In this document: positions 12,222-48,998 of the stretch, one piece after another
How positions within the stretch are numbered: position 1 is the stretch's first letter
Layout: every line of letters begins with the position of its first letter
DNA from: Flavobacteriaceae bacterium
Lineage (GTDB): Bacteria > Bacteroidota > Bacteroidia > Flavobacteriales > Flavobacteriaceae
DNA length: 64,000 bases
Direction of reading: 5' to 3'
Assembly: GCA_013043685.1 (NCBI GenBank)
Contig: JABDNT010000016.1
Span: forward strand, 62,001-126,000
The notes under the pieces: model-generated
The model's database searches: none
Seen by the model: the letters and a program-made list of their open reading frames with translations, nothing else
What the model was told of the DNA's origin: nothing
Position numbers and translations under genes: made by a program

Positions 12222-12233
12222 TCTCTTCAACAG

Positions 12234-12276
12234 CAAAAATATATTGCAGAGGTAGCGTAAAGAATGATATATGTCA
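12234..12276 (-). promoter_or_regulatory. TGACATATATCA - 23 nt - TATTTTTG (drives usp 11379)
   Basis: Palindrome 12265-12276; -7 box 12234-12241 minus strand. Confidence 0.88.
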
Positions 12277-12289
12277 GTTTTGAATAATA

Positions 12290-13351: not shown

Positions 13352-14577
13352 AAGTTACCCATAGTTGGGATAGTCACTTTGAAAGTACTACCCTTATTTT
13401 CTTCACTTGTAAAGGTAATAGTACCATCAAGGTTTTCCAAATGGTTTTGTACAATATTAAGTCCTATACCGGTACCCTGATTCAGCAAAGCATTTTCGGC
13501 CCTGAAATACCTGTTGAAGATATGCTTTTGTTCGGCTGCCGGAATCCCCATTCCCTCATCTTCAACCTCAATGATCAATTGATCACCTTCCTCGGTTACC
13601 CTAATATCGATAGTGGTATTCTCGGAAGAATACTTGATGGCGTTATTCACCAGATTCGTAAGTGTAAGTTCGAGTATTTTTTCATCGAAACTTATCACTA
13701 TGGTATCAATACCCTCGGGATAATTAATAATCTGGCCTTCTTTTAACAACATGTTCGCCCCATAGATTACTTCGTTGATCACTTTGCTAATAGGAAAATT
13801 ACTGTATTTGTAATTCACCTTACCACTTTCAATGCGTTCTATGGAGAGAAAATCATCGAGTATATTGTTGAGATATTTTACTTTATTCTGAATGGTCTTG
13901 ATATGCTTCTCCCGCTTTTCCTGCTGTTCTTCCTTTGTATATTTTCCAGCCAGGGTAGCCGAAGTAAAAATACCACTAAGCGGTGTTTTGAATTCGTGTG
14001 ACACAAGGGATAGAAACTTAGTTTTCAAATCACTAAGTTCGCGTTCTTTCCGCAGGGATTCTTTGATCTTATTCTCCGCTTGTTTTCTTTTCTCCACTTC
14101 TTTCTGAAGTTTCAAAATACTCTCATTAAGTGCTTTGGTACGCTCGGCGATCTTTCCTTCCAACTCTGTATTAAGTTCCTGGATTTCAAGTTCCTGTTCC
14201 TTCCTGACGGTTATATCAATTATCAAAGCCATCACATATCGCTTACCGTAAATTTCGAACGGGTTCAGACCTGCTTCTACAGGAAATGTACTCCCATCTT
14301 TCTTCAATCCGTAAAGATCCCGGCCATGACCCATCTGCCGTTTAGTACTTTCGTTCATAAACGATTTAAAATGTGAACTGTGATTGTGGTGGTACTTCTC
14401 CGGAATTAGCGTATTAAGTGACTTCCCCACCAGCTCATCCTTTTTGTAACCAAACAATGAGTTGAGAGATTGGTTGGTGGCAACAATGATTTGCTTTTCA
14501 TTTACAACAACGATACCTTCAGAAATTGCTTCAGTAAGAATCTGATAGATATCACTACTGCTGTTAAAAACCTCCAT
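13348..14577 (-). CDS. PAS-domain sensor histidine kinase
   Basis: PAS core; SLVSHEFKTPLSGI H-box; NNAIKYSS N-box; DEGMGIP; GTGIGLNIV. Confidence 0.95.
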   Translation of the reverse strand: MEVFNSSSDIYQILTEAISEGIVVVNEKQIIVATNQSLNSLFGYKKDELVGKSLNTLIPEKYHHNHSSHFKSFMNESTKRQMGHGRDLYGLKKDGSTFPVEAGLNPFEIYGKRYVMALIIDITVRKEQELEIQELNTELEGKIAERTKALNESILKLQKEVEKRKQAENKIKESLRKERELSDLKTKFLSLVSHEFKTPLSGIFTSATLAGKYTKEEQQEKREKHIKTIQNKVKYLNNILDDFLSIERIESGKVNYKYSNFPISKVINEVIYGANMLLKEGQIINYPEGIDTIVISFDEKILELTLTNLVNNAIKYSSENTTIDIRVTEEGDQLIIEVEDEGMGIPAAEQKHIFNRYFRAENALLNQGTGIGLNIVQNHLENLDGTITFTSEENKGSTFKVTIPTMGNL

Positions 14578-30797: not shown

Positions 30798-31889
30798 TCA
30801 ATTATTTAAATTTGTGGCAAAGTGATAATATGCTGCGCAAGCTCCTTCCGAAGAAACCATAGGTGCTCCCATAGGATTTGAAGGGGTACATCTTGAACCA
30901 AATTCACTGCATTCACCCGGTTTTTTTATTCCTTTCAATATCGCACCTGCAATGCATGTAGCGTGTTCTTTTGTGGAAATAGATTCAACACCAAATTTCA
31001 ATTCTGCATCAAAATGGCTGTATTCCGATCGTAGCACATAACCACTTTTAGGAATGGTGCCTATGCCTCTCCAATCCCTGTCCCCAATTTCAAAAACTTT
31101 GGCGATAACTTCTTTCGCGGCTAAATTGCCTTCTTCCTTTACAATTCTGGCGTACTGATTCTCAACAACAAACCTCCCTGCCTCCAACTGAGATACCGCC
31201 ATGAAGATGCCTTCGACCAAATCCAATGGTTCGAATCCGGTAACAACAATTGGGATCTCATATTTAGTACTGAGTTCATGATATTCTGACGTGCCCATAA
31301 TAGCACACACATTACCAGCACCGAGGAAAGCATCAATATTACAAAATTCGTCGTCCAGGATCGCTTCCATGGCAGGTGGTACCAATACGTGCGAAACGAG
31401 GATGGAATAATTTTTAAGTCCTTCGTTTTTAGCGTGTAAAACAGAAAGTGCATTTGCCGGTGCCGTCGTTTCAAATCCCACTGCGAAGAATACGACTTCC
31501 CTGTCCGGGTTATCGGCCGCAATTCTAACCGCTTCCAAAGGTGAATACAGTATACGCAAATCACCACCGTCCGATTTAGCTTCCAACAAGCTTTTTTTAC
31601 TTCCCGGAACGCGTATCATGTCTCCAAATGAACATACGATCACGCCCTGATCCATCAATGCGATCGCCTTGTCTATAAGCACCAGGGGTGTAACACAAAC
31701 AGGACATCCGGGACCATGGATCATCTGTACCTTATCAGGCAGCAGATCAATAATCCCATTCTTTATCAGTCCATGAGTTTGGCCGCCACAAACCTCCATG
31801 ATCTTCCATGGACGAGTCACCGTTTTCTCAATACGCTTGAGGTAATTTTTGGTGGCTTCCAGGTTTCTATATTCGTTTAGATACTTCAT
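30798..31889 (-). CDS. hypD: Hydrogenase formation protein HypD
   Basis: MEVCGGQTHGLIKNGI; IHGPGCPVCVTP; GFETTAPANALSV. Confidence 0.97.
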   Translation of the reverse strand: MKYLNEYRNLEATKNYLKRIEKTVTRPWKIMEVCGGQTHGLIKNGIIDLLPDKVQMIHGPGCPVCVTPLVLIDKAIALMDQGVIVCSFGDMIRVPGSKKSLLEAKSDGGDLRILYSPLEAVRIAADNPDREVVFFAVGFETTAPANALSVLHAKNEGLKNYSILVSHVLVPPAMEAILDDEFCNIDAFLGAGNVCAIMGTSEYHELSTKYEIPIVVTGFEPLDLVEGIFMAVSQLEAGRFVVENQYARIVKEEGNLAAKEVIAKVFEIGDRDWRGIGTIPKSGYVLRSEYSHFDAELKFGVESISTKEHATCIAGAILKGIKKPGECSEFGSRCTPSNPMGAPMVSSEGACAAYYHFATNLNN

Positions 31890-34165
31890 GAATTCGTCGT
31901 ATTCTTAGTACAATGTATGTAATACATTAGTTGTCCAAATGAAATATTTTCATCATTTGGAGATAATTCCCGGTGAAAATACAGTTTATGCCCGCTACCA
32001 ACTATGTCATTTATCATATCCACCAAAATTGTATTCTGAAAAACACCCCCGCTAAAAGCGATGTTCTTGATATTACGGGCCGTTGCCACATCTTTCACCA
32101 GAGAAGCAAGCGTGTACAGAAAATTTACAATGATTCGCTCTCTGGAGGTACCAGACCTGAAATCGGAGTATAAATTATTCCAGATAGCTCGAGTTGAAAT
32201 TATGGTGCCTTCCATTTCCGGAGCATAAGTCATACATTCATCTAAATTATAATTTGAAACATAATTCTCCAATAGGATTGCCGCTTCCCCTTCATAGGAA
32301 TTCAGATCACAAATATCCAACAATGAAGCCACCGCATCAAAGAGTCTTCCAACGGAAGAAGTCTTCAAATTGTTCTCTTCTTTTACCGAACTGTAGATAG
32401 TTATTTCTTGCTCTGAAAATTTGTGTGCGATTTCCGGGATGTCTTCGGAAGAAGTAATTGAAAGAAGCGATAGCCTGGGTTCTTTGGCCATTTTATCTCC
32501 GGCCAGCCAGTCGAAATACTCAAAATGGGATAACCGATCCATAGTCTTGTTTTCAAAGGTGAAGAATTCTCCTCCCCATATGGCACCATCATCGCCATAG
32601 CCCGTTCCATCCCACACAACACCAAGAATGGGTTCTGAATGGTCAAATAAGTTATACTCGCCCATCACGGCTGCGAAATGAGCCTTGTGATGTTGCACCT
32701 TGTAGTGATCAACTTCGTTTTCCTTGGCTAACTCAATACCGTACAGCGTACTTTGGTAGGCCGGATGCTTATCCACGAGTATCACATCAGGTTCTTGTTC
32801 AAATAAACGAATGAATTTAGTAACCGTATCGACGAAGCGCCGATACACATCATAATGGTCGAGTACACCCAGATACTCACTCATGTACAAATAATCATTC
32901 GGAATAAACGCTATGGTACTTTTTAGATTGCCACCCAATGCCATGACCCTTTCAGTAGTGCTTTCTGTTCTCTTAAAAAGATTGGGTGCATATCCCCGCG
33001 AGCGTCTGAACATAACCGGTATCCCCGATCTTTCGGAAATCTTAACCACAGAATCGTCTTGTGGATTTATAATTCTTAAATTATGATTGAAAAAATAATC
33101 GGCCACATCTCTAAGTATGACCGTGCTTTCTTTTTCATCACTTAGGATAGGCGACCCATGCAGATTTCCGCTGGTGGCTACAATGGGTCTGTCAAGTTCA
33201 TTCGCAAGTAGCTGCATAATCCCGGAATATGGTAGCATAACTCCTAATTGACTGAGCCCCGGGGCAACTGCCTTCCCGGCTACATCTCCTTTATAATCCT
33301 TCATGGGAATAATAACGATAGGTCGTTCGGGAGAGCACAGGAGCTTTTTTTGCTGTTGTGATAGTCGCAGTCCTTGTTCCAACAATTCCAGTGACGGATA
33401 CATCACTGCAAATGGTTTGTCCGGTCTGTTCTTTTTCTTCCTTAAACTCTCAACTGTTTCTTCGGAAGTTGCATCGCAACACAGTAAATATCCGCCGGTA
33501 TTCTTGATGGCAATTATTTCTCCTTCACTCAGCAGTTCTGCCATTTTACTGAAGATCTGATTGCGGGTAACCTGCATTTCTTTTTCGTTATTGTCAACCA
33601 GTTTATACCCGATACCACAAACACTACAGGAATTGGTTTGTGAGTGAAAGCGCCGGTCTTCCGGATTCGCGTATTCATTTATGCATTGCTCGCACATCTC
33701 AAATTCACTGATACTTGTATGATCACGTTCAAAAGGGAATGTATTCGTGATTGCCCAGCGCGGACCACAATTTACGCAGGTAGTGAAAGGATAGTGAAAC
33801 CTTCTGTTTTCCCTATTGGAAATATCATTTTTACAATCCTTGCAAATAGCAAAATCCGGAGTGAGTTGAAGATTTAATTTTCCCGATTTTTTTGAAGGGA
33901 TTATTTGAAATTCATCAAACTGTCGCAATTCAATATCCTGAAAGTGATGGCTATTTATTCTGGCAACTTTAGGCGGGTGTTCAATTAATTTTTGATAAAA
34001 GGAATGAACTTCTTCTTCAGTACCTGACGCAATTATTATTACTCCTTCCTCATTATTGGAAACGGTACCCTTAATATTAAATTCCTTAGCCAAAACATAG
34101 ACATACGGTCTAAAACCCACCCCCTGAACCTGACCGGTGATTATTAATTTATATGTTTTGAGCAT
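31886..34165 (-). CDS. hypF: Carbamoyltransferase HypF
   Basis: Acylphosphatase N-term QGVGFRPYVY; zinc fingers; YrdC-like; HHKAHFAAVMGEY. Confidence 0.97.
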   Translation of the reverse strand: MLKTYKLIITGQVQGVGFRPYVYVLAKEFNIKGTVSNNEEGVIIIASGTEEEVHSFYQKLIEHPPKVARINSHHFQDIELRQFDEFQIIPSKKSGKLNLQLTPDFAICKDCKNDISNRENRRFHYPFTTCVNCGPRWAITNTFPFERDHTSISEFEMCEQCINEYANPEDRRFHSQTNSCSVCGIGYKLVDNNEKEMQVTRNQIFSKMAELLSEGEIIAIKNTGGYLLCCDATSEETVESLRKKKNRPDKPFAVMYPSLELLEQGLRLSQQQKKLLCSPERPIVIIPMKDYKGDVAGKAVAPGLSQLGVMLPYSGIMQLLANELDRPIVATSGNLHGSPILSDEKESTVILRDVADYFFNHNLRIINPQDDSVVKISERSGIPVMFRRSRGYAPNLFKRTESTTERVMALGGNLKSTIAFIPNDYLYMSEYLGVLDHYDVYRRFVDTVTKFIRLFEQEPDVILVDKHPAYQSTLYGIELAKENEVDHYKVQHHKAHFAAVMGEYNLFDHSEPILGVVWDGTGYGDDGAIWGGEFFTFENKTMDRLSHFEYFDWLAGDKMAKEPRLSLLSITSSEDIPEIAHKFSEQEITIYSSVKEENNLKTSSVGRLFDAVASLLDICDLNSYEGEAAILLENYVSNYNLDECMTYAPEMEGTIISTRAIWNNLYSDFRSGTSRERIIVNFLYTLASLVKDVATARNIKNIAFSGGVFQNTILVDMINDIVGSGHKLYFHRELSPNDENISFGQLMYYIHCTKNTTNS

Positions 34166-34211
34166 TTTATCATCTTAAGATTCAAAAAGGGAGCGTACTA
34201 ATTTAAGAAAA

Positions 34212-34748
34212 TTAAGAATGTAACTTTTCAGCAAGTTTTAAGACTTTATCAATCGTTCGGGGAATGGCTTCCTTAACGGGTTTTGAGAGTTCAACGGTCA
34301 TAGGTTTCACTTCTTGTATGGAAATGGTGATCAACAGAATTTCCGGTACCTCATCCATTAGATAGACGGCTTCTATCATATCCTTAAGTCCAACATCATG
34401 CACGCTTAGAGCATTTGGGAAATCTGAAGCGAATTTAGGTGTAATAATGCTAATACTTCCGGGAGTTTTACCATCCATAGTGGCATCAATGAAAATAATT
34501 TTCGGGTAGGCCTCAAAACAACTCAACAGCAACAACCCTCCAGTGCCTCCGTCCAAAATGTCAACGGCATCGGGTAGATCCATTTTCGACATTTCCTGGA
34601 TAATATGTACCCCAATACCTTCATCCCCCATTAAATAATTCCCAACTCCCATCACTAAAATACAATCCGATTTGTCCTTTTCGAAGAAAAAGGAATCACT
34701 CGATACAGCAATGGGTGACGGATTATTATCTTTATATGTGCTCATCAC
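34212..34748 (-). CDS. Hydrogenase maturation protease (HyaD/HybD type)
   Basis: VMGVGNYLMGDEGIGVHII; LDGGTGGL; FIDATMDG; SVHDVGLKDMI. Confidence 0.93.
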   Translation of the reverse strand: MMSTYKDNNPSPIAVSSDSFFFEKDKSDCILVMGVGNYLMGDEGIGVHIIQEMSKMDLPDAVDILDGGTGGLLLLSCFEAYPKIIFIDATMDGKTPGSISIITPKFASDFPNALSVHDVGLKDMIEAVYLMDEVPEILLITISIQEVKPMTVELSKPVKEAIPRTIDKVLKLAEKLHS

Positions 34749-35457
34749 TTTCTAAACGTTCTTTACGAACAAATTTGTAGCCACTTATCATCGCAGAAGT
34801 TTCACCGCGCCCTTCTAACCAGTCGTGGTAGAAAACCAAATACACGTGAATTAATGTAAATACTATGAATAACCAGGTAGCCGCATGATGTATAAGCCTG
34901 GTTGGCGCATCACCGCCCAGAAAATCGGGTACCCAGGCAAATAATTGAGGGAGCCACCAACCTGAAGTAGCCGCGTACAAGCCAAAACCTGTAAATATCT
35001 GGACCAAGGCAAGCAGGAACAATACAAGGTAAGAAATTGAAGCCACATAATTATGTCCGATACTAATATTTTTTAGTATTTCCTCTTCTTCATTTTGCAA
35101 CAGTATATCTACCTTTAAAACATGCCATACATTCTTCCACGATCTTTTAGTATAGGGGAAAAGTGCACGCCAATTTGCATAATAATTTCCCCTAAATGCC
35201 CAATATATGCGTACTATGGCGTTCACTAAAAATATATACGCCGTAATGAAATGAATCATTCTCACTGTACCAAACCAATAAGATTCAGAAGCTTCAGCAC
35301 CAGACATAAAGACAGGTGGGTTTGCTATGATTAAACCGGTGACCGTAAGGATAATTACAGATAATGCGGTGATCCAATGACATATTCGAACTGGTAATTC
35401 CCAAACCAATACTCTTTTAAAATCAGAGGTTTGAATCGTCTTTTCCATGATATCCAT
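34732..35457 (-). CDS. hyaC: Ni/Fe-hydrogenase b-type cytochrome subunit
   Basis: VWELPVRICHWITALSVIILTVTG; RLIHHAATWLFIVFTLIHVYLVFYHDWLEGRGETSAMISGYKF. Confidence 0.95.
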   Translation of the reverse strand: MDIMEKTIQTSDFKRVLVWELPVRICHWITALSVIILTVTGLIIANPPVFMSGAEASESYWFGTVRMIHFITAYIFLVNAIVRIYWAFRGNYYANWRALFPYTKRSWKNVWHVLKVDILLQNEEEEILKNISIGHNYVASISYLVLFLLALVQIFTGFGLYAATSGWWLPQLFAWVPDFLGGDAPTRLIHHAATWLFIVFTLIHVYLVFYHDWLEGRGETSAMISGYKFVRKERLESDEHI

Positions 35458-35465
35458 TTTAGAAT

Positions 35466-37199
35466 TTAAATTTCACAACTGTCTATTTGGTTTACCTGTG
35501 ATAAATGACGTCCATGTTCATCATATAAATGAACCGCGCAAGCCAAACACGGGTCAAATGAATGTACAGTTCTAATGATCTCTAATGGAAGTTCAGGGTC
35601 GGCAACCGGAGTATCAATCAGGCTGGCTTCATAGGCAGACATCTGCCCGTTGGGATCCCTTGGTGAAGCGTTCCATGTTGTTGGGACCACCTGCTGGTAA
35701 TTTTCGGTTTTACCATCCTTGATCTTAATCCAGTGAGCCAAACTGCCTCGCGGTGCTTCCGTAAATCCAATTCCTTTAGCTTCTTCCGGCCAATCGGCAG
35801 GTTCCCATAAATCCATGTTTGCCATTCGGCTGTCGCCATTTTTAATATTGGTGAGTAATTGATTATAAAATTCCAAGGTCCAATCGGCCACCAATTGAGT
35901 TTCAATACCCCTGGCAGCTGTTCTTCCCAAGGTTGAGAATAATGCTTCAACAGGAACATCCAAATGACTCAAAGCGGCATTCACGGCATTTTGGATCTCT
36001 TCATGACCCCGGCCGTAGCCCACCAGTAATCGAGCCAATGGCCCAACTTCCATAGGTTTTCCCTGCCATCTTGGTGTTTTAATAAAACTATATTTCTGTG
36101 AAACGTCTAATTGTTCATAGGGTGGTTTAGGCCCCGTATAATTGATATTTGTCTCGCCATCCCAGGGGTGCCTGCCAGTGTCTGCACCTTCAGTATAATT
36201 GTCGTACCAGGAATTATTTACAAACTCTTCAATATCACCATTACGATGATCTACATCATGAATTTTAGATAAATCTCTGTTTAAAATTACACCTTGTGGA
36301 AACTTAAATCCACTGGGATCACCATATCCATTTGTTGGAAAATCGCCATATGACATATAATTTCCATGTCCTTTACCAATAGCACCCCAATCCTTATAGT
36401 ACGAAGCAATGGCCAACAGATCGGGTATATAAACCTGGTTAATGAAATCCTTGCCTTGTTTTAGTAACTTACCAACATAGGCGAGGCGCTCGGCATTTAT
36501 ACCACCCATACTATCTTCATTAATGGCACATGCCATACCTCCAACCAAATAGTTTGGATGCGGATTTTTACCTCCGAAAATGGTATGGACTTTTACCATT
36601 TCTTTTTGCCATTCAAGAGCCTCCAAATAATGAGCTACTCCCAATAAATTTACTGCAGCAGGTAATTTCATTTGCGGATGACCCCAATAGCCATTGGCGA
36701 AAATTCCTAATTGTCCGGAATCAACAAATTTTTTAATCCGCTTCTGTATGTCGCCAAAATATCCCGGGGAACTTTTTGGCCAGTTGGAAATACTTTGGGC
36801 TATTTTTGAAGTTTCACCCGGATCTGCCTGTAGTGCGCTTACTATGTCTACCCAGTCCAGCGCATGTAAGTGATAAAAATGCACTGCATGATCGTGCATG
36901 TATAAAGCGCCCTGCATAATATTCCGAACCATTTCGGCATTTGGCGGAACAGCAATTCCCAGGGCATCTTCAACTGCTCTTACCGATGCAATAGCATGTA
37001 CCGTGGTACATACACCGCATGTACGCTGGGCAAATGCCCAAACATCCCGGGGGTCACGTCCTTTAACTATGTTTTCAAGTCCGCGTACCATGGTACTGGA
37101 ACTGTAAGCGTCAACTATCTTGCCGTCTTTAACTTCGGCCTCTATTCTCAAATGACCTTCGATCCTGGTTACCGGATCAACTACTATTCTGTTTGCCAT
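35466..37199 (-). CDS. hyaB: [NiFe] hydrogenase large subunit (membrane-bound, group 1)
   Basis: RIEGHLRIEAEV; QRTCGVCTTVHA; DPCLACAVH with C-terminal extension. Confidence 0.97.
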   Translation of the reverse strand: MANRIVVDPVTRIEGHLRIEAEVKDGKIVDAYSSSTMVRGLENIVKGRDPRDVWAFAQRTCGVCTTVHAIASVRAVEDALGIAVPPNAEMVRNIMQGALYMHDHAVHFYHLHALDWVDIVSALQADPGETSKIAQSISNWPKSSPGYFGDIQKRIKKFVDSGQLGIFANGYWGHPQMKLPAAVNLLGVAHYLEALEWQKEMVKVHTIFGGKNPHPNYLVGGMACAINEDSMGGINAERLAYVGKLLKQGKDFINQVYIPDLLAIASYYKDWGAIGKGHGNYMSYGDFPTNGYGDPSGFKFPQGVILNRDLSKIHDVDHRNGDIEEFVNNSWYDNYTEGADTGRHPWDGETNINYTGPKPPYEQLDVSQKYSFIKTPRWQGKPMEVGPLARLLVGYGRGHEEIQNAVNAALSHLDVPVEALFSTLGRTAARGIETQLVADWTLEFYNQLLTNIKNGDSRMANMDLWEPADWPEEAKGIGFTEAPRGSLAHWIKIKDGKTENYQQVVPTTWNASPRDPNGQMSAYEASLIDTPVADPELPLEIIRTVHSFDPCLACAVHLYDEHGRHLSQVNQIDSCEI

Positions 37200-37211
37200 G
37201 ATCAGTTATTT

Positions 37212-38345
37212 TCATTCGTTTTTATCTATTTTCTCTTCATTAATACGACCTCTCGTATAGCGTTTTTTATGCTCTTTTCGTTTTGAAATACTTGCCGCAA
37301 CCGCATGGGCTGCCAATCCAGCAACCACAGCTCCTGTGGCTATTTTACCAACCTTATCGGCAGTATTTTCAATAGAGAATCCGGGAACATTGGTTAAGCG
37401 CTCGTAAAACGGACCGTGATCCCAGAAATTGGCCTCACTACAGCCTATACATCCATGACCGGATTGTATTGGAAAACTTACACCATTATTCCATCTCATA
37501 CTTCCACAGGCGTTGTATGTAGTAGGCCCTTTACAACCTACTTTATATAAGCAATAGCCATCTTTAGCATTTTCATCATCAAAGGATTCGGCGAACAATC
37601 CGGCGTCGAAATATGGCCTTCGGTAACAGGTATCATGTACGCGTTTTCCATAAAAGGCCTTTGGCCGGCCAGCCCGATCCAATTCGGGTAGTTTTCCAAA
37701 TGTTACATAATGAACAATTAATGCTGCCATTGCCTCACCTATAGGCGGACAACCCGGCATTTGAACAATAGGTTTATTCTTAATTATCTTGTGAATAGGT
37801 GTAGCATCCGTAGGATTGGGTTTAGCTCCCTGTACACAACCGTTACAAGCACAACTTCCCCAGGCGATAATGGCCTTAGCTCCCTCTGCAGCTTCCTTGA
37901 GATGGTCTATAGCAGTTCTACCGGCTATAGTACAATACACACCATCTGCTCCTAAAGGCACAGAACCTTCAACACACAATATGTACTCACCATAATATTT
38001 TTTCATGGTGTCATGTTTGGCAGCTTCTGCCTGATGACCTGAAGCAGCCATTAACGTTTCAGTATAGTCCAATGAAATATTGTCCAGGATAATATCTGCC
38101 ACTATAGGGTGATCGGAACGAATGAAAGATTCACTACAGCAAGTGCATTCCTGATAGTGTTCCCAAATAATGGGCAACCGGTATGAGGTCTCCAGAGCTT
38201 TTGCCACCTGGCCTATCATGGAATGTTCCAGTCCCATATAAGCTGTGATGAAGGCGGCAAATTTCATAAATTCCCTGCGGCTGTATCCATGACCAATGAT
38301 ATTGTCGAAGTAAGTTTCCCTTTTATTTTTGTGTAGCGTCCCCAT
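37212..38345 (-). CDS. hyaA: [NiFe] hydrogenase small subunit, Tat-exported, six-Cys proximal cluster type
   Basis: YSRREFMKFAA Tat motif; ECTCCSESF; WGSCACNGCVQGAKPNPT; MPGCPP; C-terminal TM. Confidence 0.96.
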   Translation of the reverse strand: MGTLHKNKRETYFDNIIGHGYSRREFMKFAAFITAYMGLEHSMIGQVAKALETSYRLPIIWEHYQECTCCSESFIRSDHPIVADIILDNISLDYTETLMAASGHQAEAAKHDTMKKYYGEYILCVEGSVPLGADGVYCTIAGRTAIDHLKEAAEGAKAIIAWGSCACNGCVQGAKPNPTDATPIHKIIKNKPIVQMPGCPPIGEAMAALIVHYVTFGKLPELDRAGRPKAFYGKRVHDTCYRRPYFDAGLFAESFDDENAKDGYCLYKVGCKGPTTYNACGSMRWNNGVSFPIQSGHGCIGCSEANFWDHGPFYERLTNVPGFSIENTADKVGKIATGAVVAGLAAHAVAASISKRKEHKKRYTRGRINEEKIDKNE

Positions 38346-38413
38346 GGATGATAGTTTTAGAAAAGCAAATTTGACTTTTGTATTGACCTAATCTTCAATA
38401 CTTTATAATTAAA

Positions 38414-38456
38414 AAAAGTTAGCGAAAATTGACATTTTCAGGTATGATATTAATCA
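38414..38456 (-). promoter_or_regulatory. TGATTAATATCA - 23 nt - TAACTTTT (drives hyaABCD-hypFDE)
   Basis: Palindrome 38445-38456; -7 box 38414-38421 minus strand. Confidence 0.87.
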
Positions 38457-38593
38457 TATTTTCATATTTATAACCGATTTAAATAAGAAGGATATGACGC
38501 ACCTTTTTTATTGAGAAAAATTGGATAAGTCCGAAGAATAACCGATACTTATAATTGAAAATATCTTAATCTTCATAATCCAAAATCAGCGAA

Positions 38594-38935
38594 ATGCATG
38601 AAATGTCCATTGCCCTGAGCATTGTTAAAATAGCAGAAACAGAAGCAAAAAAAGCGAAAGTCGATTCCTTTGCAGCTATTGAAATGGAGATCGGAACTTT
38701 GGCAGGTATAGAATTTGATGCATTGGATTTTGTCTGGGAAGCTGCCGTCCGGGAAACGGTCTTGGAAAAGGCGGTAAAACGAATAAAGAAAATTCCTGCT
38801 AAAGCGCGTTGTGGAGATTGTGAAAAGATTTATTCCCTTCAATTTATTCATGATAATTGCCCGGATTGCGGAAGTTTTCTAAAAACTATTATACAGGGCA
38901 AAGAACTGCGTGTAAAAAGCATGGAAACCTTTTAA
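38594..38935 (+). CDS. hypA: Hydrogenase nickel incorporation protein HypA
   Basis: MHEMSIALSIVKIAE; CGDCEKIY...CPDCGS zinc motif. Confidence 0.96.
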   Translation: MHEMSIALSIVKIAETEAKKAKVDSFAAIEMEIGTLAGIEFDALDFVWEAAVRETVLEKAVKRIKKIPAKARCGDCEKIYSLQFIHDNCPDCGSFLKTIIQGKELRVKSMETF

Positions 38936-39040
38936 TTTGGAAGGAATATCTTAAATTTTAAAAGGCATTTCTACTCTTAACTTGTTATTTTTCAGATACT
39001 TGGGAGTGTGACGGAAAAAAATTTATTTTTTTCATTTCTA

Positions 39041-39083
39041 TGACTTTAGTCATTAGTCTCATCCCAAAACTGTTATACTTTTG
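39041..39083 (+). promoter_or_regulatory. TGACTTTAGTCA - 23 nt - TACTTTTG (drives hox operon)
   Basis: Palindrome 39041-39052; perfect -7 box 39076-39083. Confidence 0.9.
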
Positions 39084-39108
39084 AGCGTAAACCTAATATA
39101 CTCGATCA

Positions 39109-40929
39109 ATGATAACAGAGAATAAAGTTGACCGCAGCAAGCTGATGGACGTTATCTGGGACATTCAGCGTAAAAAATTTCAAATCACACATGACGACAT
39201 TTCGAAGATTGCACAAGAATTCGATATGTCCAGAATGGAACTGGAAGGCATTGTTACTTTCTATCATTTTTACCACAGGACCCCTTGTGGAAAATACACG
39301 ATTTATCTGAACGACTCTATCGTATCTGAACATTCCGGAAGACCGGAGGTGTTGCATGCATTCGAAGAAGCACTTGGGATTAAACTTGGCCGAATCACTG
39401 CAGATGGTACGTTTGGTCTTTTTAAAACACCTTGTATTGGATTGAGCGATCAAGAGCCTTCCTGTCTGATTAATTTTAAACCTTTTACCAATTTAACCCC
39501 GGAAAAGGTGCGTGACATTATCGGCCGATTGAGAAATGGTGAAAAACCTTCCAAGATCTGTGATAAACCAAAGACAAACATCCGTTATACCCCGGAACCA
39601 GAAAGAACTGTCTTTTTTAAACCATACACCACCTACTCTTCTTTAGACAAACTCAACGAGTATGAGCCTTCTGAAGTTATCGAACTTGTAAAGAAGTCGA
39701 AACTTACAGGACGGGGCGGAGCTTTCTTCCCTACCGGCTTGAAATGGCAGTTTTGCAGTCAGAATGAAGCGGATATCAGATATATTATCTGTAACGCAGA
39801 TGAGGGAGAGCCAGGAACATTTAAAGACAGAGTGCTGCTGCAAGAGCATCCCGAATTACTGATCGAAGGAATGATCCTCGCGGCATATGCAATTGGGTGT
39901 TCCCAGGGAGCGATCTACCTGCGAGCCGAATACATGTATCTGAAGAAGGAACTTGAGTCTCTGTTGGAAGAGTATCGAAACAACGGATATCTGGGGAAAG
40001 ATATCAAGGCCAAAAAACCATTCGATTTTGATATTTACATCCATATGGGTGCAGGTGCATATGTGTGTGGAGAAGAAACCGCATTGATTCATTCTATGGA
40101 AGGTAAAAGAGGTGAACCCAGTACTAAAGAATATTTTCCGGTTGAAAAAGGATTCAATGGAAAACCAACTGTAGTAAATAACGTAGAAACGCTTTGTGCC
40201 GTTCCCCGGATACTCAATATGGGCCTTGACAAATATCTTACCCTGGGAACCGAGCAAACGCCAGGTACTAAATTGCTTAGCGTATCGGGTGACTGCGGTA
40301 AACCGGGACTATATGAAATTGAATGGGGTATGAAGCTCCGTGAATTTCTAAAACTAATCGAAGCAAGAAACACGAAGTTTATCCTTTTTAACGGCTATGC
40401 TGGCGAATGTCTGTCGGAAGCCGATTTCGACAGGGAAATTTCAGGTAAGAACCTGCTCGCAGACGACGACCTGCTCCACTTTAAAGACACCGAGGAATAC
40501 ACTCAAAAAATGAGTGGCAAGGGATTGCGGGCCGGAGGTTCGGTAATGATATTCAACAAAGGCAGAGACCTGCTTCATGTTTTAAAGAACGTAGCCGATT
40601 TCTTCGTGGCAGAGTCTTGCGGGATATGTGTTCCCTGCCGTACGGGTAATTTCCTTCTGAATAAAAAAATCGACAGGATAAAACTTGGACATGGTGAGGA
40701 AAAAGACCTGGAAGAGATAAAAGAATGGAGCAAGATCATTAAAACAACCAGTCGCTGTGGATTGGGTAAAATGTCCTCTACGGCTTTAAACGATGCGATA
40801 TTCAAGTTCCCCGAAGTTTTCGGAACCATACTTTCTGAAAATACTGATTTCAACAAAGCATTCAACTTAGACGATGCGACAATTGACTATGACCATATTA
40901 TTAACGAAATGACTTCCGACTATGACTAA
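39109..40929 (+). CDS. hoxF: Bidirectional hydrogenase diaphorase subunit HoxF (NuoE-like + NuoF-like)
   Basis: N-term NuoE-like VTFYHFYHRTPCGKYTIYLNDS; GRGGAFFPTGLKW; ESCGICVPCRTGN. Confidence 0.93.
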   Translation: MITENKVDRSKLMDVIWDIQRKKFQITHDDISKIAQEFDMSRMELEGIVTFYHFYHRTPCGKYTIYLNDSIVSEHSGRPEVLHAFEEALGIKLGRITADGTFGLFKTPCIGLSDQEPSCLINFKPFTNLTPEKVRDIIGRLRNGEKPSKICDKPKTNIRYTPEPERTVFFKPYTTYSSLDKLNEYEPSEVIELVKKSKLTGRGGAFFPTGLKWQFCSQNEADIRYIICNADEGEPGTFKDRVLLQEHPELLIEGMILAAYAIGCSQGAIYLRAEYMYLKKELESLLEEYRNNGYLGKDIKAKKPFDFDIYIHMGAGAYVCGEETALIHSMEGKRGEPSTKEYFPVEKGFNGKPTVVNNVETLCAVPRILNMGLDKYLTLGTEQTPGTKLLSVSGDCGKPGLYEIEWGMKLREFLKLIEARNTKFILFNGYAGECLSEADFDREISGKNLLADDDLLHFKDTEEYTQKMSGKGLRAGGSVMIFNKGRDLLHVLKNVADFFVAESCGICVPCRTGNFLLNKKIDRIKLGHGEEKDLEEIKEWSKIIKTTSRCGLGKMSSTALNDAIFKFPEVFGTILSENTDFNKAFNLDDATIDYDHIINEMTSDYD

Positions 40930-42187
40930 GATGGTAAACCTAAAGATTGATGGCAAGCCTATTCAGGCGGAAGCCGGAATGAACCTCGTGGATGTTGCAA
41001 AACAAAATGGAATATACATCCCGACACTATGTTATTTTAAAGAGCTAAATCCCCTGGCCACCTGTAGAATTTGTACAGTGAAAGTGAATGGTAAGGAGAT
41101 TACGGGATGTACCGTAAAGGTTGCGGAAGGAATGGATATTGAGGTGACCACTCCCGAATTACTGGACAACAGGAAAGCTATTATTGAAATGCTCTATGCC
41201 GAAGGTAACCACTTCTGCCCTTCCTGTGAAAAAAGTGGTAACTGCGACATGCAAAACCTTGGCTATGATATGGGTATTACTGTAACGCGGTATCCTCACG
41301 TTTTCAGTGATAAGATTGTCGACTTCAATCCGAAAAGAATGATCATGGAGTCCAACCGTTGTATCCTGTGTAAGCGATGTGTAGAGGAAGTGAAGACTAA
41401 GGACGGTAAAGATGTATTCTCCTTTGTGCAGCGAGGAGTCAAAACCCGTGTACAAATAGACTACGAACAGGAAGCAAATCTAACTGAAGCTGAAGCTATT
41501 CATGCAATGAATATATGTCCGGTTGGAGCCATCCTTGTTAAAGGTATGATACACGAGCAGCCATTTGGCGAACGCAAATACGACCTTCTGGGTAAAGACA
41601 TCAAACCTGTAGTGAAAAAAGATCCACTGCGTCAAAGGGATGGTGGAAAATTTATTGTGGCAACTACGTCCCTGGCCGGGTGTTTCGGATGCCATATGTC
41701 TTTACTGGATATTGACACCGAGCTACTCGATGTATTGGAACTGGTGGAATTCAATAAATCTCCATTGACCGATATAAAGAAATTCAGTAAACAATGTCAT
41801 ATCGGTCTGGTTGAAGGAGGATGTTCTAATTCGGAAAATGTAGAGGTGCTACGTGAATTCCGCAAGAAGTGTGATATCCTCGTAGGCTTTGGAGAATGCG
41901 CTATTATGGGTGGAATTCCTGCGATGCGAAATTTTGTTCCGTTGAAAGAATGTCTGGACGAAGCATATCTTAACGGAGTCACCACAGAGGTTGGAGCCGA
42001 TGTGGTTCCCGGACATGAAGATATTCCAAAGCTTTTGAACAACGTGTACCCCTGTAATGAGGTGGTAAAGATCGATTACTACATCCCTGGCTGTCCGCCC
42101 AATGCGCAACACATATGGAAAGTAGTGAAAAGTATACTGTTGGGTGAGGAATTTTCCATTGCTCATGATGAATTTAAATACGATTAA
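40922..42187 (+). CDS. Fused HoxU-HoxY (diaphorase Fe-S subunit + hydrogenase small subunit)
   Basis: N-half LATCRICTVKVNG, CPSCEKSGNCDMQ, NRCILCKRCV (HoxU); C-half SLAGCFGCHMSLLDIDTELL, LVEGGCSNSENVEVLREFR, GECAIMGGIPAMRN, YIPGCPPNAQHIW (HoxY). Confidence 0.94.
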   Translation: MTKMVNLKIDGKPIQAEAGMNLVDVAKQNGIYIPTLCYFKELNPLATCRICTVKVNGKEITGCTVKVAEGMDIEVTTPELLDNRKAIIEMLYAEGNHFCPSCEKSGNCDMQNLGYDMGITVTRYPHVFSDKIVDFNPKRMIMESNRCILCKRCVEEVKTKDGKDVFSFVQRGVKTRVQIDYEQEANLTEAEAIHAMNICPVGAILVKGMIHEQPFGERKYDLLGKDIKPVVKKDPLRQRDGGKFIVATTSLAGCFGCHMSLLDIDTELLDVLELVEFNKSPLTDIKKFSKQCHIGLVEGGCSNSENVEVLREFRKKCDILVGFGECAIMGGIPAMRNFVPLKECLDEAYLNGVTTEVGADVVPGHEDIPKLLNNVYPCNEVVKIDYYIPGCPPNAQHIWKVVKSILLGEEFSIAHDEFKYD

Positions 42188-42208
42188 CCCCATTCAAATA
42201 ATAAAGAG

Positions 42209-43660
42209 ATGTCACAAAAATTAGTTATAGATCCGGTAACGAGAGTTGAAGGCCATGGTAAAGTAACAGTCCATTTAGATGATCAGAATAAAGTTAAGGA
42301 CGCTTTTTTCCATATCGTGGAGTTTAGAGGTTTTGAACGTTTTATTCAAGGACATCCATATTGGGAAGCCCCTGTTCTTGTGCAACGCTTATGTGGAATA
42401 TGTCCCGTAAGCCATCACCTGGCAGCAGGCAAGGCAATAGACCAAATTGTAGGTCTTGATCCCGGGGATCTGTCTTTACCGGCACAAAAAATAAGGAAGC
42501 TGTTACATTTCGGACAAGTATTCCAGTCACACGCTTTACATTTCTTCTATTTGGCATCTCCCGATTTATTGTTCGGCTTCGATGCGGATCCTGTTAAAAG
42601 AAATGTAGTTGGTGTGGCCATGGATTACCCTGCACTTGCCAAGAAAGGGATCCTTATGCGGAAATTTGGCCAGGAGATCATTAAAATGGTTGCCGGAAAG
42701 CGTATTCATGGTATTTCTACCACTCCCGGTGGTGTGCACAAGAAGATCACCGTTAAAGAACGGAACAGGTTCCTGGATGGGAAAGAACTCCCTTCCATAG
42801 ATACAATGATCGAATGGTCTGTAGAGATACTTGACTTCATGAAAGAATATCACAAGAAGAATAGTGCATTTTTAGATGGCTTTGCAGATTATCCTTCCGG
42901 TCATCTCGGACTGGTTAAAAAAGAGAACGGATTTTTAGAATTGTACGATGGTAATCTCCGCGCTACGGATGCGAAAGGAAATATTACATTGGATGACATC
43001 CCTGATGTGGATTACGCAAAACATTTCTATGAAGGCGTTGAAAAATGGTCGTACCTGAAGTTTCCTTACCTGAAACACATTGGTCGCGAACACGGTTGGA
43101 ACAGAGTGGGCCCTTTGGCACGCGTAAATATTTGTAATGGTATAGAAACTCCTTTAGCCGAAAAAGAACGAATAGAATTTAAGTTAGCCGGAGGAGATAT
43201 AAATAATAAGACCATGCATACGCACTGGGCGAGGTTGATCGAGATATTGTATTGTGCAGAAATGATGAAGAACCTGCTCGAAGATGATGACATAATTTCA
43301 AACGACCTGGTACGCAAGGGAACCAGAAGAAGTGAAGGTGTTGGAATTATCGAAGCACCCAGAGGAACGCTGATTCACCATTATGAAGTAGATGACAAGG
43401 ACCGTATCACCCGTTGTAATCTAATTGTTTCAACTACCCATAATAATGAGGCGATGAATCGGGCGGTACGTTGGGTGGCTCAAAATGAAATTAGTGGTCA
43501 GCCAAAAGTTACAGAGGCCATGATGAACCAGATCGAGGTGGCAATTAGGGCTTACGATCCTTGCCTAAGTTGCGCAACTCATGCCCTGGGGCAAATGCCA
43601 CTGGATATATCAATAATCGACCAATACGGAAATATTCTGGATGAAAGATTACGAAACTAA
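42209..43660 (+). CDS. hoxH: [NiFe] hydrogenase large subunit HoxH (group 3d-like)
   Basis: RVEGHGKVTVHLDD; QRLCGICPVSHHLA; DPCLSCATH. Confidence 0.95.
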   Translation: MSQKLVIDPVTRVEGHGKVTVHLDDQNKVKDAFFHIVEFRGFERFIQGHPYWEAPVLVQRLCGICPVSHHLAAGKAIDQIVGLDPGDLSLPAQKIRKLLHFGQVFQSHALHFFYLASPDLLFGFDADPVKRNVVGVAMDYPALAKKGILMRKFGQEIIKMVAGKRIHGISTTPGGVHKKITVKERNRFLDGKELPSIDTMIEWSVEILDFMKEYHKKNSAFLDGFADYPSGHLGLVKKENGFLELYDGNLRATDAKGNITLDDIPDVDYAKHFYEGVEKWSYLKFPYLKHIGREHGWNRVGPLARVNICNGIETPLAEKERIEFKLAGGDINNKTMHTHWARLIEILYCAEMMKNLLEDDDIISNDLVRKGTRRSEGVGIIEAPRGTLIHHYEVDDKDRITRCNLIVSTTHNNEAMNRAVRWVAQNEISGQPKVTEAMMNQIEVAIRAYDPCLSCATHALGQMPLDISIIDQYGNILDERLRN

Positions 43661-44105
43661 AATATTGCTGCTGGGAATTGGAAATTCCGGAAGATCCGAC
43701 GACGGATTGGGCTGGGCATTCCTCGATGCAATGCAAGATAAATTAACCAGTGAATTCGACCTGGAATACAGATATCAATTACAAATTGAAGATGCCGAGC
43801 TTATCTCCAATTACGATGTTGTGTATTTCATCGATGCACATTTGGACCAATTCGCCCAGGGGTACCATTTAGAACCATGTCTCCCGCTGCGAACAGAGAG
43901 TTTCAGTACGCATCAGTTAGATCCTCGTACCGTTGTCTACCTATGTGAAAGTATCTATAATAAAAGACCGGAGACTTTTACTTTGGGGATCTCGGGCGTT
44001 GCATTCGATTTGAACATTGGGATTTCGGCTCAAGCCAAATCGAATCTTTCCAATGCGTTGAATTTTTTTGAAAACAGTATATTAGAGCTAACAATTAATA
44101 AGTAA
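43641..44105 (+). CDS. Hydrogenase maturation protease (HoxW-like)
   Basis: LLLGIGNSGRSDDGLGWAFLD; VYFIDAHLD. Confidence 0.88.
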   Translation: MKDYETKILLLGIGNSGRSDDGLGWAFLDAMQDKLTSEFDLEYRYQLQIEDAELISNYDVVYFIDAHLDQFAQGYHLEPCLPLRTESFSTHQLDPRTVVYLCESIYNKRPETFTLGISGVAFDLNIGISAQAKSNLSNALNFFENSILELTINK

Positions 44106-44108
44106 GTT

Positions 44109-44933
44109 ATGTGTGGAACCTGCGGATGCTCTCCTGAAGAGAATAAAATAGTGGTATTAGATCCAGTAAAGGCTAAAAGTGAGCCTGAACACAAACATAG
44201 TCATGATCACTCTCATGATCACTCCCATGGTCACACTCATGAACATTCTCATGATCATCATCACGATCACTCACATTCTCACAAGGTACTTGAAGTAGAA
44301 GCAGATATTCTCCGTCAAAACGATCTTATGGCCGCTAAGAACAGAGGCTTTTTTGAGGCAAAAGGAATACTTGCCTTAAATCTTGTAAGTTCCCCGGGCT
44401 CGGGTAAAACGTCCCTGTTGGAACGAACCCTGAGCGATCTGAAGGATGAGCTGTCGTTTTATGTCATTGAAGGGGACCAAAAGACACAGAATGATGCAAG
44501 ACGCATAGCAGCTTTGGATGTACCCGTGGTGCAAATTAATACGGGTAAAGGCTGTCATCTCGAGAGTGATACCGTCCTGGAAGCTGTTAGAAAACTGGAA
44601 GTTGAAGATCGAGGGATCCTGATGATAGAAAACGTGGGTAATTTGGTTTGCCCTTCCATGTTCGACCTGGGCGAAAGCAAGCGAGTTGTGATAATAAGCA
44701 CAACGGAAGGTGATGATAAACCTCTTAAATATCCTGATATGTTCTATACTTCGGATATTTGTATTATCAACAAAATGGACTTGCTGCCTTATTTGGATAC
44801 GGATATCGAGACGATAAAACAGAATGCTCTCAAGGTAAATCCGAATTTATTGTTCTTTGAAGTTTCAGCGACCAAAGGAAATGGAATGAAGGATTGGTAC
44901 CAGTGGTTAACCGAACAATACGAATCAATATAA
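44109..44933 (+). CDS. hypB: Hydrogenase nickel incorporation GTPase HypB with His-rich N-terminus
   Basis: MCGTCGCS; polyHis tract; LVSSPGSGKTSLLERTL; INKMDLLPYLD. Confidence 0.97.
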   Translation: MCGTCGCSPEENKIVVLDPVKAKSEPEHKHSHDHSHDHSHGHTHEHSHDHHHDHSHSHKVLEVEADILRQNDLMAAKNRGFFEAKGILALNLVSSPGSGKTSLLERTLSDLKDELSFYVIEGDQKTQNDARRIAALDVPVVQINTGKGCHLESDTVLEAVRKLEVEDRGILMIENVGNLVCPSMFDLGESKRVVIISTTEGDDKPLKYPDMFYTSDICIINKMDLLPYLDTDIETIKQNALKVNPNLLFFEVSATKGNGMKDWYQWLTEQYESI

Positions 44934-45920: not shown

Positions 45921-45953
45921 AATTTACTATTTAGGATTATTAATTTTAACGAC

Positions 45954-45996
45954 TAAACTTAAGTATCCTGGTACAATATTAAAATGATCTGAGTCA
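45954..45996 (-). promoter_or_regulatory. TGACTCAGATCA - 23 nt - TAAGTTTA (drives hsp20 45456)
   Basis: Palindrome 45985-45996; -7 box 45954-45961 minus strand. Confidence 0.85.
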
Positions 45997-46047
45997 AACC
46001 AAATTCACAAGATCTCAACATTTTTTTTTAAATAAATGAAGCTTGTT

Positions 46048-46090
46048 TGATCCTGGTCATTTTTTATTTTAATATACCTTTTTACTTTAG
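46048..46090 (+). promoter_or_regulatory. TGATCCTGGTCA - 23 nt - TACTTTAG facing an ORF-free region
   Basis: Palindrome 46048-46059; -7-like box 46083-46090; no ORF >=60 aa on + strand until beyond 46592. Confidence 0.72.
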
Positions 46091-46282
46091 CATAATTATT
46101 TCAACGATCTTTTAAATACTGAAAACCCTAAATAATGTGGATTCCAGGTGTAGTGATTATACGTGGGATCCCGGGAAAGAATAGAACCTCATTTATGCAC
46201 CATTCAATTTTTTATTAGCCCAATAATAAGCGAGTATTCGAATTGATATAAGAGGGTATGAATAAGGAATTATACTTTCCAG

Positions 46283-46312
46283 GAAACCGGGGCATTCAAT
46301 TGCTCCGGTTTC
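46283..46312 (+). terminator. GAAACCGGgGCA-ttcaat-TGCtCCGGTTTC hairpin then TGTTT
   Basis: Strong inverted repeat. Confidence 0.75.
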
Positions 46313-46482
46313 TGTTTAACAAACAATGTTATTATGGTATTGGATTATATTTTCGAAAGGGGATATAGTCCTTTTAGAAGAGATTAGAATTATTATCATC
46401 TAATTTGATTTGATGAATTATTTTAGCAATGAAGTAATTTGGCTGTTGATGGTAGATTATAATATTTTTAGCATCTTCTTAG

Positions 46483-46517
46483 GAAACAGGAAGCCCGTGC
46501 TTCCTGTTTCTGTTTTT
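46483..46517 (+). terminator. GAAACAGGAAGC-ccgt-GCTTCCTGTTTC hairpin then TGTTTTT
   Basis: Perfect 12-bp stem and T-run on + strand. Confidence 0.88.
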
Positions 46518-46591
46518 AGGGATATCTTTCTATAGAAAACTTAATTTGGAAATGGCGACATTAACTTTCTATGATAGGTTTACCATTTTGG

Positions 46592-47659
46592 TCATTGAAA
46601 ATTTGCAATCTCTCTCAGACGAGTTTTATTGAGCAGAATAAGCTTCCGTCCTGGACCCATGGCGATGAGCCCTTCGTCCTTTAATTTGTGTAGCATACGT
46701 ATGGCGGTTTCCGTTGCAGTACCAATAAAACCTGCGAAATCCTCCCTTGGAATATCGGTCCCCGAATTAGCCACATCCTTTACAATTCCCTTATTGTATA
46801 ACTCAAGCAAGGCCTTGGCCGTACGTTGACGTACTGATGCAAATGCCATACTCATATTGCGTCTTCGTTCCTTCATGAGTTCATTGGAAACCATCTTTGT
46901 AAAGATTTTGGAAATAACTTTGTCTTTACGCATCAAATCTATAAAATCTGTTCTTGGGATTTCAATTGTTCTGGCATCGGCAATAGCGGTAGCTGTCTCC
47001 GTATTATAACTTTCATCCGCCAGCAGGGATAGCTGACCGATAAATTCTCCCGAGGTATACATTCCCGTTACAAATTCCTTACCGCTTTCCGTATACTTAT
47101 ATGTTTTTACAACACCATTCTTTATGTAATACACATAAGAAGCTTTGGAACCATCTGTAAACAGATCCTGCTTTAGGTTGTAAAGCTTGGTGCGGTACTT
47201 TACGAAATATTTCTCCAAATTCACATCTCGCAGAGAATCGTCTAAATCAGGAGTGATGTCAGGGCTTATGGACAGCCTATTAATAAGCACTTCCTTTTTT
47301 CTTAAACGGCTTTCTATTGACTCTAATAACTCGTGCTCCTCGAAAGGTTTCAGGAGGTAGTCGTCAGCACCTAATATCATGCCCTTTCTCACATCGTCTT
47401 TCTCCGTTTTGGAAGTCAAGAAAATAAATGGGATATGGTTGGTTTCTACGTTTTCACTCAAAATTCTCAAAACTTCATATCCATCCAATGCAGGCATCAG
47501 GATATCACAAAGAATGAGGTCTGGCAAATGTTCCTCAGCTTTTCTCACACCGACATAGCCGTCCTCGGCAGTGATCACATCGTAATTTGCAAATTCCAAT
47601 ATGTCGGCTGTAGTTTCCCGTACATACCTATTGTCCTCTATTAACAGTATTTTCTTCAT
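46592..47659 (-). CDS. Hybrid response regulator: REC + cNMP-binding fold + CRP/FNR HTH
   Basis: LILCDILMPALDGYE; LGADDYLLKPFEE; VYYIKNGVVKTYKYTESGKEFVTGMY; IPREDFAGFIGTATETAIRMLHKLKDEGLI. Confidence 0.94.
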   Translation of the reverse strand: MKKILLIEDNRYVRETTADILEFANYDVITAEDGYVGVRKAEEHLPDLILCDILMPALDGYEVLRILSENVETNHIPFIFLTSKTEKDDVRKGMILGADDYLLKPFEEHELLESIESRLRKKEVLINRLSISPDITPDLDDSLRDVNLEKYFVKYRTKLYNLKQDLFTDGSKASYVYYIKNGVVKTYKYTESGKEFVTGMYTSGEFIGQLSLLADESYNTETATAIADARTIEIPRTDFIDLMRKDKVISKIFTKMVSNELMKERRRNMSMAFASVRQRTAKALLELYNKGIVKDVANSGTDIPREDFAGFIGTATETAIRMLHKLKDEGLIAMGPGRKLILLNKTRLREIANFQ

Positions 47660-48833
47660 GTTTAGCGAAAAATTGGTTTGTTGGAAATTGTACAGTGAAA
47701 GTGGTTCCTGTATTTACCATACTCTTAAAATTGATTGATCCACCTAAAAGTTCAGTATACTGTTTGGCTATATGTAATCCCAGTCCGGTGCCTTGAATAT
47801 AATTCGCATTCTGAGCCCTGAAGAATTTGTTGAATAGATTTTTTTGTTCATCCAAAGGGATCCCAATACCCTGATCTTCGACGGTATAATAGAAGGAATC
47901 ATCGATAGTCCCAACAGTTACGGAAATTACAGATTCTTTAGAGGAATATTTAATAGCGTTCGATATAAGGTTCACAAGTATATGTTCCAGTAATATCGGA
48001 TCTGTAAATACTTTATGGTCAGATTTTTTCTTGATAAGCCGGATAGTCTGTCCTGGTTTCTTGCTGGGTTTAATTTGTTCTATCAATGTGGTTATGAACA
48101 AATCCGGATATATCCACTTCTTTTTTAGTGCTTCCTTTTTGTCCTTCAGCTTTTCAAATGACAGATAATCATCGAGAATTACCACCAGGTTATGTACGTT
48201 AGCTTTTATAATTTTAAAATACTTCTCCCTTTTCTCTCGATATTCGGGGCTTTCAAGTTTTTGGATCATATTTACGGAGGACAATATGGCGCTCAACGGA
48301 GTCCTGAATTCGTGAGAAGCCATAGTGATAAAACTGGATTTTAATTCATTGAGCTCTTGTTCTTTTTGCAATGCCTTCCAGATCTTGGTTTCATATTTTT
48401 TTCGTCGTGAAATATTATAAAACACCAACAACGCTTTTTTACCATTACCCACGATAGTAAATGGCGTTGTGTTCACCGAATAAGTGTTATTATTAAACTC
48501 AGTTTCAAAGGTATTATGTACCCCGTCCAGGGTTTTAAGAACGTCCTTCTTCAATCTGGTTTTCTGGTTTTCGGAGAAAGTAGATATATCATCAACGCAC
48601 ATTCCACTCACAATCACATTCCTCAAACCCAGTTTGTCTAATTCTTCTCCTTCAACATACTCTATTAAAAAATCACCATTGATCACAGCGATCAAACCAT
48701 TGGGAAAGTGCTTAGCGATGGTCTCTAAGGTAATTTTACTGGCGCGGGCTGTTGCCTGGGCAGTATCTGAAATTTTTATCTTGTCCGACAGATGATCCTG
48801 TATTTTCAATTCGTTATCCATAATACGATTCAT
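47628..48833 (-). CDS. Sensor histidine kinase with divergent PAS domain (start likely 48833 or 48821 rather than 48890)
   Basis: TMASHEFRTPLSAI H-box; NLISNAIKYSS; EDQGIGIP; GTGLGLHIAK. Confidence 0.92.
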   Translation of the reverse strand: MNRIMDNELKIQDHLSDKIKISDTAQATARASKITLETIAKHFPNGLIAVINGDFLIEYVEGEELDKLGLRNVIVSGMCVDDISTFSENQKTRLKKDVLKTLDGVHNTFETEFNNNTYSVNTTPFTIVGNGKKALLVFYNISRRKKYETKIWKALQKEQELNELKSSFITMASHEFRTPLSAILSSVNMIQKLESPEYREKREKYFKIIKANVHNLVVILDDYLSFEKLKDKKEALKKKWIYPDLFITTLIEQIKPSKKPGQTIRLIKKKSDHKVFTDPILLEHILVNLISNAIKYSSKESVISVTVGTIDDSFYYTVEDQGIGIPLDEQKNLFNKFFRAQNANYIQGTGLGLHIAKQYTELLGGSINFKSMVNTGTTFTVQFPTNQFFAKHEENTVNRGQ

Positions 48834-48998
48834 TGACACGCATATATATACTCGCCAGAATCTTCCGTGAGAAACGACTTGAAGAATCACCTCATTATTT
48901 CATTCTTTGTTTTACTAGAATTTAAAGGAGAAGTGGTTTAAGTAGACTAGTAAATTTGTTTCCCCCGAATTATATCCTGACCAAAATCATTTAAATAT

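Follow-up and report, generated by a model that had tools for sequence, protein, structure and literature searches.

Does the Crp/Fnr-type box in front of an apparently gene-free interval control a non-coding RNA, and if so, of what kind is this RNA? The interval belongs to the window, i.e. the whole 64,000-nt stretch of Flavobacteriaceae DNA analyzed here. It is bordered by a divergent hsp20 gene (PF00011; 45456-45920, - strand) and by the gene of a response regulator with REC, cNMP-binding and Crp-type HTH domains (46592-47659, - strand), which is convergent with the putative RNA and a candidate regulator of the box; the histidine kinase paired with this adjoining response regulator is encoded at 47628-48890 (- strand). 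A preliminary description of the locus, in which candidate non-coding RNA(s) had been proposed, noted the absence of open reading frames of at least 60 aa. This holds for positions 45988-46591, where the longest frame has 41 aa and a TTG start; a spurious frame antisense to hsp20 ends at 45987, outside the ORF-free gap. No consistent reading frame is found across the related loci. On comparative grounds, namely conservation, compensatory changes and a recurring promoter, there is strong support for a non-coding RNA controlled by the regulon box.

Both plus-strand hairpins of related design named in the preliminary description are present at 46283-46312 and 46483-46510, with perfect 12-bp arms and a mismatch-free C-type stem in hairpin 1, and the GGATTCC/GGGATCC stem suspected near 46138-46170 is real as well: it forms the hairpin SL1 at 46137-46172. 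Both halves of the predicted transcript fold alike, with SL1 at the 5' side, an imperfect SL2 of about 105 nt, and a GAAAC hairpin, SL3. The window RNA is thus supported as two predicted tandem copies of one three-hairpin unit of about 175 nt, all on the + strand. In unit 1, SL1 is followed by SL2 (46174-46280), a long imperfect stem closed by GGAAAG/CTTTCC, and by SL3 of C-type, GAAACCGGGGCA/TGCTCCGGTTTC (46283-46312), which is probably not an RNA end. Unit 2 comprises SL1 (46342-46371), the long imperfect stem SL2 with the apical UUUAGCAAUGAA and its GNRA-like loop (46376-46479), and SL3 of A-type, GAAACAGGAAGC/GCTTCCTGTTTC (46482-46511), the stem of a terminator whose U-run GTTTTT (46512-46517) marks the predicted 3' end of an RNA of about 423 nt. 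Compared with shuffled sequences, the fold has z-scores of -4.4 (46092-46320), -6.0 (46321-46517) and -8.0 (46092-46517), and no shuffle was as good. A covariance model, R1, matches both units: unit 2, which is part of the training set, with 91.4 bits, and unit 1, which was held out, with 43.8 bits and an E-value of 1.2e-5, a rough figure because the calibration was shortened. The model also finds many further units. The covariance search with homologous regions suggested in the preliminary description hence recovers a unit on which the model had not been trained.

We retrieved 36 related regions for comparison of neighborhood and structure. When each sequence is folded singly by minimum free energy, i.e. 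without an alignment, the three stems are shared in nearly all loci, and the bases of the SL2 closing stem differ. The two arms of SL2 pair better with each other than with arms of other loci (-12.66 kcal/mol for own arms, -7.88 +/- 0.54 kcal/mol for arms swapped among loci); none of 100,000 permutations matches the observed pairing, and for SL2 of window unit 1 the own-arm pairing beats every swap tried for that locus. For covariation, 27 A-type units were aligned by sequence only; in this alignment, 83.5% of the cells are paired versus 41-51% with partners slid, compensatory changes on both sides occur in 32 out of 52 pairs, and the covariation score reaches 0.318 against 0.08-0.125 with slid partners. 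As these A-type sequences also served to derive the structure, the comparison with slid controls is biased in its favor; the arm-swap test is free of this bias. The helices are not constrained equally: in SL3, with its near-invariant stem GAAAC[A/C]GG...CC[T/G]GTTTC, 8 out of 14 pairs never vary, versus 0 out of 38 in the other helices. The loops of the units vary among loci, except for the apical SL2 loop, which is usually GNRA-like. A plain MAFFT alignment followed by RNAalifold returned three pairs only, because SL3 of A-type and C-type was misregistered by one column, and it was replaced by the arm-swap test and the A-type-only alignment.

The preliminary description had named missing sequence conservation in relatives as part of what would refute the RNA; such conservation is found. 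The SL3 pattern GAAACMGGRRNNN{3,6}NNYYCCKGTTTC occurs in at least 35 out of 400 Flavobacteriaceae genomes, representing 30 of 238 genera; in the same search of 400 genomes, the reversed pattern used as a control has no matches in any listed genome. Among 296 genomes sampled from the class, two have the pattern, that of the window and one further genome, which corresponds to one of about 286 genomes from other families, where the reversed control is positive in two. BLAST with 511 nt yields short matches only, centered on SL3 and in several cases tandem. In most of the retrieved regions the hairpins are located beside Usp genes, a pair of histidine kinase and REC-Crp regulator, or hsp20. Relatives usually form arrays of two to four units, typically at one locus per genome. 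At two loci (L117 and L118) the neighbors of the array are related to the window's own REC-Crp regulator and histidine kinase, and in Spongiivirga citrea the array shares its stretch with hsp20 and a P-type ATPase.

The promoter follows the same layout at most loci of the family. The box TGATCCTGGTCA (46048-46059, + strand) and, 23 nt later, the -7 element TACTTTAG (46083-46090, + strand) are placed exactly as in the preliminary description. Sequences resembling the box are common: the window has 75 matches to TGATCNNGGTCA at up to two mismatches, versus 54 +/- 8 expected, so that the box by itself is weak evidence, and the window copy is imperfect. Upstream of the first unit, TGA-N6-TCA followed by 23 nt and TAnnTT is found in 31 out of 34 related loci when the covariance model delimits the units; of 28 first units, 25 have TAnnTT[A/T][G/A] at equal offset. 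Strong palindromic TGA-N6-TCA boxes located 220-239 nt before the first SL3 number 17, compared with about 0.4 by chance as derived from box density; the window shares this family layout, with box, 23 nt and TAnnTT about 219-237 nt ahead of its first SL3. Activators of the Crp/Fnr type classically bind at -41.5 in class II promoters. The window's -7 element is a variant of the flavobacterial sigma-A element TAnnTTTG. The latter occupies -12 to -5 (PMC9723704), and this placement sets the predicted transcription start at 46095 (+ strand) and the center of the box at -41.5. A promoter of class II activator type is therefore supported as the probable driver of the RNA. The hsp20 gene carries its own box, 23-nt spacer and -7 element on the opposite strand (45949-45996), i.e. 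TGACTCAGATCA at 45985-45996 and TAAGTTTA at 45961-45954; since this layout equals that of the RNA promoter, the two form a divergent pair with matching promoters. As judged by the sequence data, the RNA family with its promoter and layout as described here is, in our estimation, very probably real.

According to the preliminary description, the two hairpins could end separate transcripts of about 220 nt and 420 nt. This was not borne out, as the hairpins represent the third hairpins of tandem units. A terminator scan calls only hairpin 2 terminator-like, and hairpin 1 is followed by TGTTTAAC, so that partial termination at this point is possible. Across the family, where arrays hold one to four detected units with a spacing of mostly 20-42 nt, the 8 nt after SL3 contain on average 2.6 U in internal copies, which are A-rich there, versus 5.3 in last copies (p = 0.001); in some arrays the final unit is shortened and 7-8 U in a row follow. 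Because the U-run follows the last SL3 and not the internal ones, one RNA is likelier than separate products, and the window most likely encodes a single predicted RNA of about 423 nt, from 46095 to about 46517. At one related locus (L112:4425-5056), two arrays apparently follow one another, and a separate box and -7 element are present for each.

Between promoter and first unit lies a short leader motif. GTTC[T/A/C]T[T/C] is found at about +10 to +19 in 20 out of 28 first units versus 2.4% by chance, in most relatives as GTTCTTT or GTTCATT, which also occur in their rRNA operons. Since relatives have the equal sequence ahead of their 16S and 23S rRNA, we read this leader as boxA-like. In Escherichia coli, boxA shields long untranslated RNA from Rho (PMC4807359). 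With a boxA matrix derived from rRNA, 17 of 28 leaders score above the 99th percentile of a random-sequence null; the rRNA instances of this matrix had been preselected by a motif resembling the leader, and the test therefore speaks for similarity, not for function. Leaders of rRNA and of the arrays have GTTC[A/T]TT in common within Flavobacteriaceae and this motif alone, the RNA being ribosomal in the former and non-ribosomal in the latter. In the window, the leader ACGATCTTTTAA (46104-46115, + strand) is degenerate and scores 4.8 bits, under the 99th percentile of the null (8.9), so that for this copy the boxA step is an extrapolation.

Which regulator might act on the box? The preliminary description cited E. 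coli FnrS, an FNR-activated small RNA, as precedent. Its promoter logic stands, with the class II box in 31 of 34 loci, but an FeS-type FNR was not found in the genome. The latter is 97.7% complete and encodes three HTH_Crp_2 proteins, none of which has the N-terminal cysteine set of FNR type; two are REC-cNMP-Crp response regulators. The adjacent two-component system is therefore the best candidate, and the activator is likely to be the REC-Crp protein encoded next door. Low oxygen is suggested as the signal by the box type and the neighbors. Hydrogenase genes in the window are consistent with low-oxygen metabolism: a [NiFe] hydrogenase large subunit and HypF are encoded within 31886-44933, and other genes of hydrogenase type lie close by. 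A single Crp-family protein without a REC domain was found in the genome (L143; G000:C41:17928-18107); it has a CAMTMTCC segment and is not FNR-like, and its gene adjoins TauE-like and persulfide-dioxygenase-like genes, as named from sequence reading.

Four alternative explanations of the hairpin arrays have to be weighed. If the hairpins were ordinary intrinsic terminators, one ending an RNA of about 220 nt and the other serving as a backup or belonging to the convergent REC-Crp gene, their likeness would be incidental. The clear plus-strand U-run of hairpin 2 agrees with such a function, but termination does not need a stem sequence that is near-invariant in about 30 genera, internal copies are devoid of U-runs, and SL1 and SL2 recur with each copy; we consider this explanation improbable. 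The same-strand Usp gene downstream of many arrays is reminiscent of a leader or attenuator of the next gene. This is very improbable given that the next gene in the window is convergent, that several of the Usp genes downstream come with a box of their own (e.g. L091, L102, L110), and that the arrays finish in a U-rich terminator. A DNA-level element, i.e. a REP-type repeat, an attC-like hairpin array or part of a mobile element, would account for tandem palindromes and for a patchy occurrence within the genus. Since the arrays usually occupy a single locus per genome instead of being dispersed, have a promoter at fixed distance, show compensatory changes in the long RNA stem and adjoin regulatory rather than mobile genes, we regard it as extremely improbable.

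A doubtful alternative, although one with more in its favor, is an FnrS-like trans-acting RNA, in which the transcript or units cut from it would repress mRNAs by means of an unpaired seed, most likely the leader GTTCTTT. A stress-type promoter, a terminator and the conservation of the leader (20 of 28 first units, as given above) are in line with this possibility. The leader is better read as boxA given its place before 16S and 23S rRNA, and it occurs once per array, whereas it is the structured units that are multiplied. Apart from the GNRA-like loop, the loops of the units are not conserved; the conserved parts are a double-stranded stem, this loop and the boxA-like leader, leaving no obvious free seed, and there is no match to an Rfam sRNA. 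With moderate confidence, we favor an RNA that would bind protein in a multivalent fashion or be processed over one that would act through a free seed.

Like the window RNA, FnrS is a non-coding gene with an intrinsic terminator behind a Crp/Fnr-type box in activating position; the window RNA differs in being multi-unit, about 423 nt long and highly structured, and scans with Rfam models, that of FnrS included, give no sequence or structure match. Protein-titrating RNAs of the CsrB/RsmZ type carry repeated structural modules on one RNA, as does the window array. The repeats of CsrB expose GGA in hairpin loops, whereas here the loops vary and the stem is constant; a repeated display of GGA was not found in the loops of SL1 and SL3, which vary, and AGGA sits in the paired SL3 stem. 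Multicopy paralogous non-coding RNAs are known in Bacteroidota from Bacteroides, namely FopS and GibS, of which FopS bind the protein RbpB (PMC11697453). FopS RNAs measure about 65-70 nt, lie dispersed and combine a single-stranded 5' seed with a single terminator hairpin; the units described here, unlike these, are about 175 nt long, tandem, three-hairpin and mostly paired. The nearest published candidate, compared by description only, is Rfp18 of Flavobacterium psychrophilum (PMC9723704), which likewise comes from an intergenic region in this bacterial family, folds strongly into three or more stem-loops and is conserved beyond the species. It is reported as a protease regulator, and the main text mentions neither tandem units nor a Crp/Fnr box. 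In F. tegetincola, no match to the model was found.

Rfam scans of the window region gave no family above the gathering score and three weak, unrelated matches with E-values up to 5; L20_leader, which appeared in scans of the window and eight related loci, scored far below the gathering threshold and was rejected. The RNA is not described in the literature searched, which consisted mostly of open-access papers. The model also gives antisense matches (e.g. 46477-46602 of the window, - strand), owing to the palindromic sequence of SL3; these were removed on the basis of their strand. The RNA is absent from six searched congeners, hence its distribution is patchy at genus level, by loss or transfer. 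Genus g156, a large genus of Flavobacteriaceae and possibly Flavobacterium, contains almost no model matches; weak ones of about 40 bits look like ordinary hairpins and were rejected. The window itself contains, at 10980-14577, a cluster of Usp, REC-Crp and histidine kinase genes of the kind that hosts the array in most relatives, here without one. Likewise, no array is present at six REC-Crp loci of three Winogradskyella, Lacinutrix algicola, Flavobacterium tegetincola and Spongiivirga citrea; among these genomes only that of Spongiivirga has an array, at another site.

How could such an RNA work? Under low oxygen or a related stress, a protein of the Crp/Fnr family would bind the box and switch on the RNA together with hsp20, elsewhere with Usp genes; the most likely candidate is the adjacent REC-Crp regulator, which its histidine kinase would drive. 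The boxA-like leader would let RNA polymerase pass the untranslated hairpins without Rho termination. The most speculative step concerns the repeated SL3, which might be the recognition site of a protein or nuclease. Its sequence is constant despite being paired, and its internal copies do not terminate, which suggests recognition of this kind; judged by this conservation, we take the step as possible, if somewhat short of an even chance. The RNA would then act as a multivalent protein-binding RNA or be cut into repeated RNAs of about 180 nt. As a whole, we tentatively propose that the REC-Crp system switches on a boxA-protected, rRNA-like untranslated array; an RNA-binding protein with sequence specificity would be captured by the repeated units or would cut them, and the unit number would set the dose of sites. 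Just as tentatively, Flavobacteriaceae could possess, in such arrays, a multi-unit class of regulatory RNA that is new.

Members of the Flavobacteriaceae are abundant; their regulatory RNAs and their use of Crp/Fnr-type boxes are poorly known. What is gained here is a conserved RNA family with predicted promoter, ends, units and neighbors, found in about 30 of the sampled genera and testable in species that can be cultured, e.g. Spongiivirga citrea. With this family, the Usp/Hsp20 stress regulon would gain a post-transcriptional arm, and a boxA-like element may have a use outside ribosomal RNA in this phylum. A gene for an RNase of the beta-CASP metallo-beta-lactamase type (Beta-Casp and RMMBL domains) is located in the Usp cluster of the window (5279-6649, - strand), and in several other genera (L091, L102, L109, L110, L121) relatives of this RNase are encoded in the vicinity of the array; the enzyme might be a processor of the RNA.
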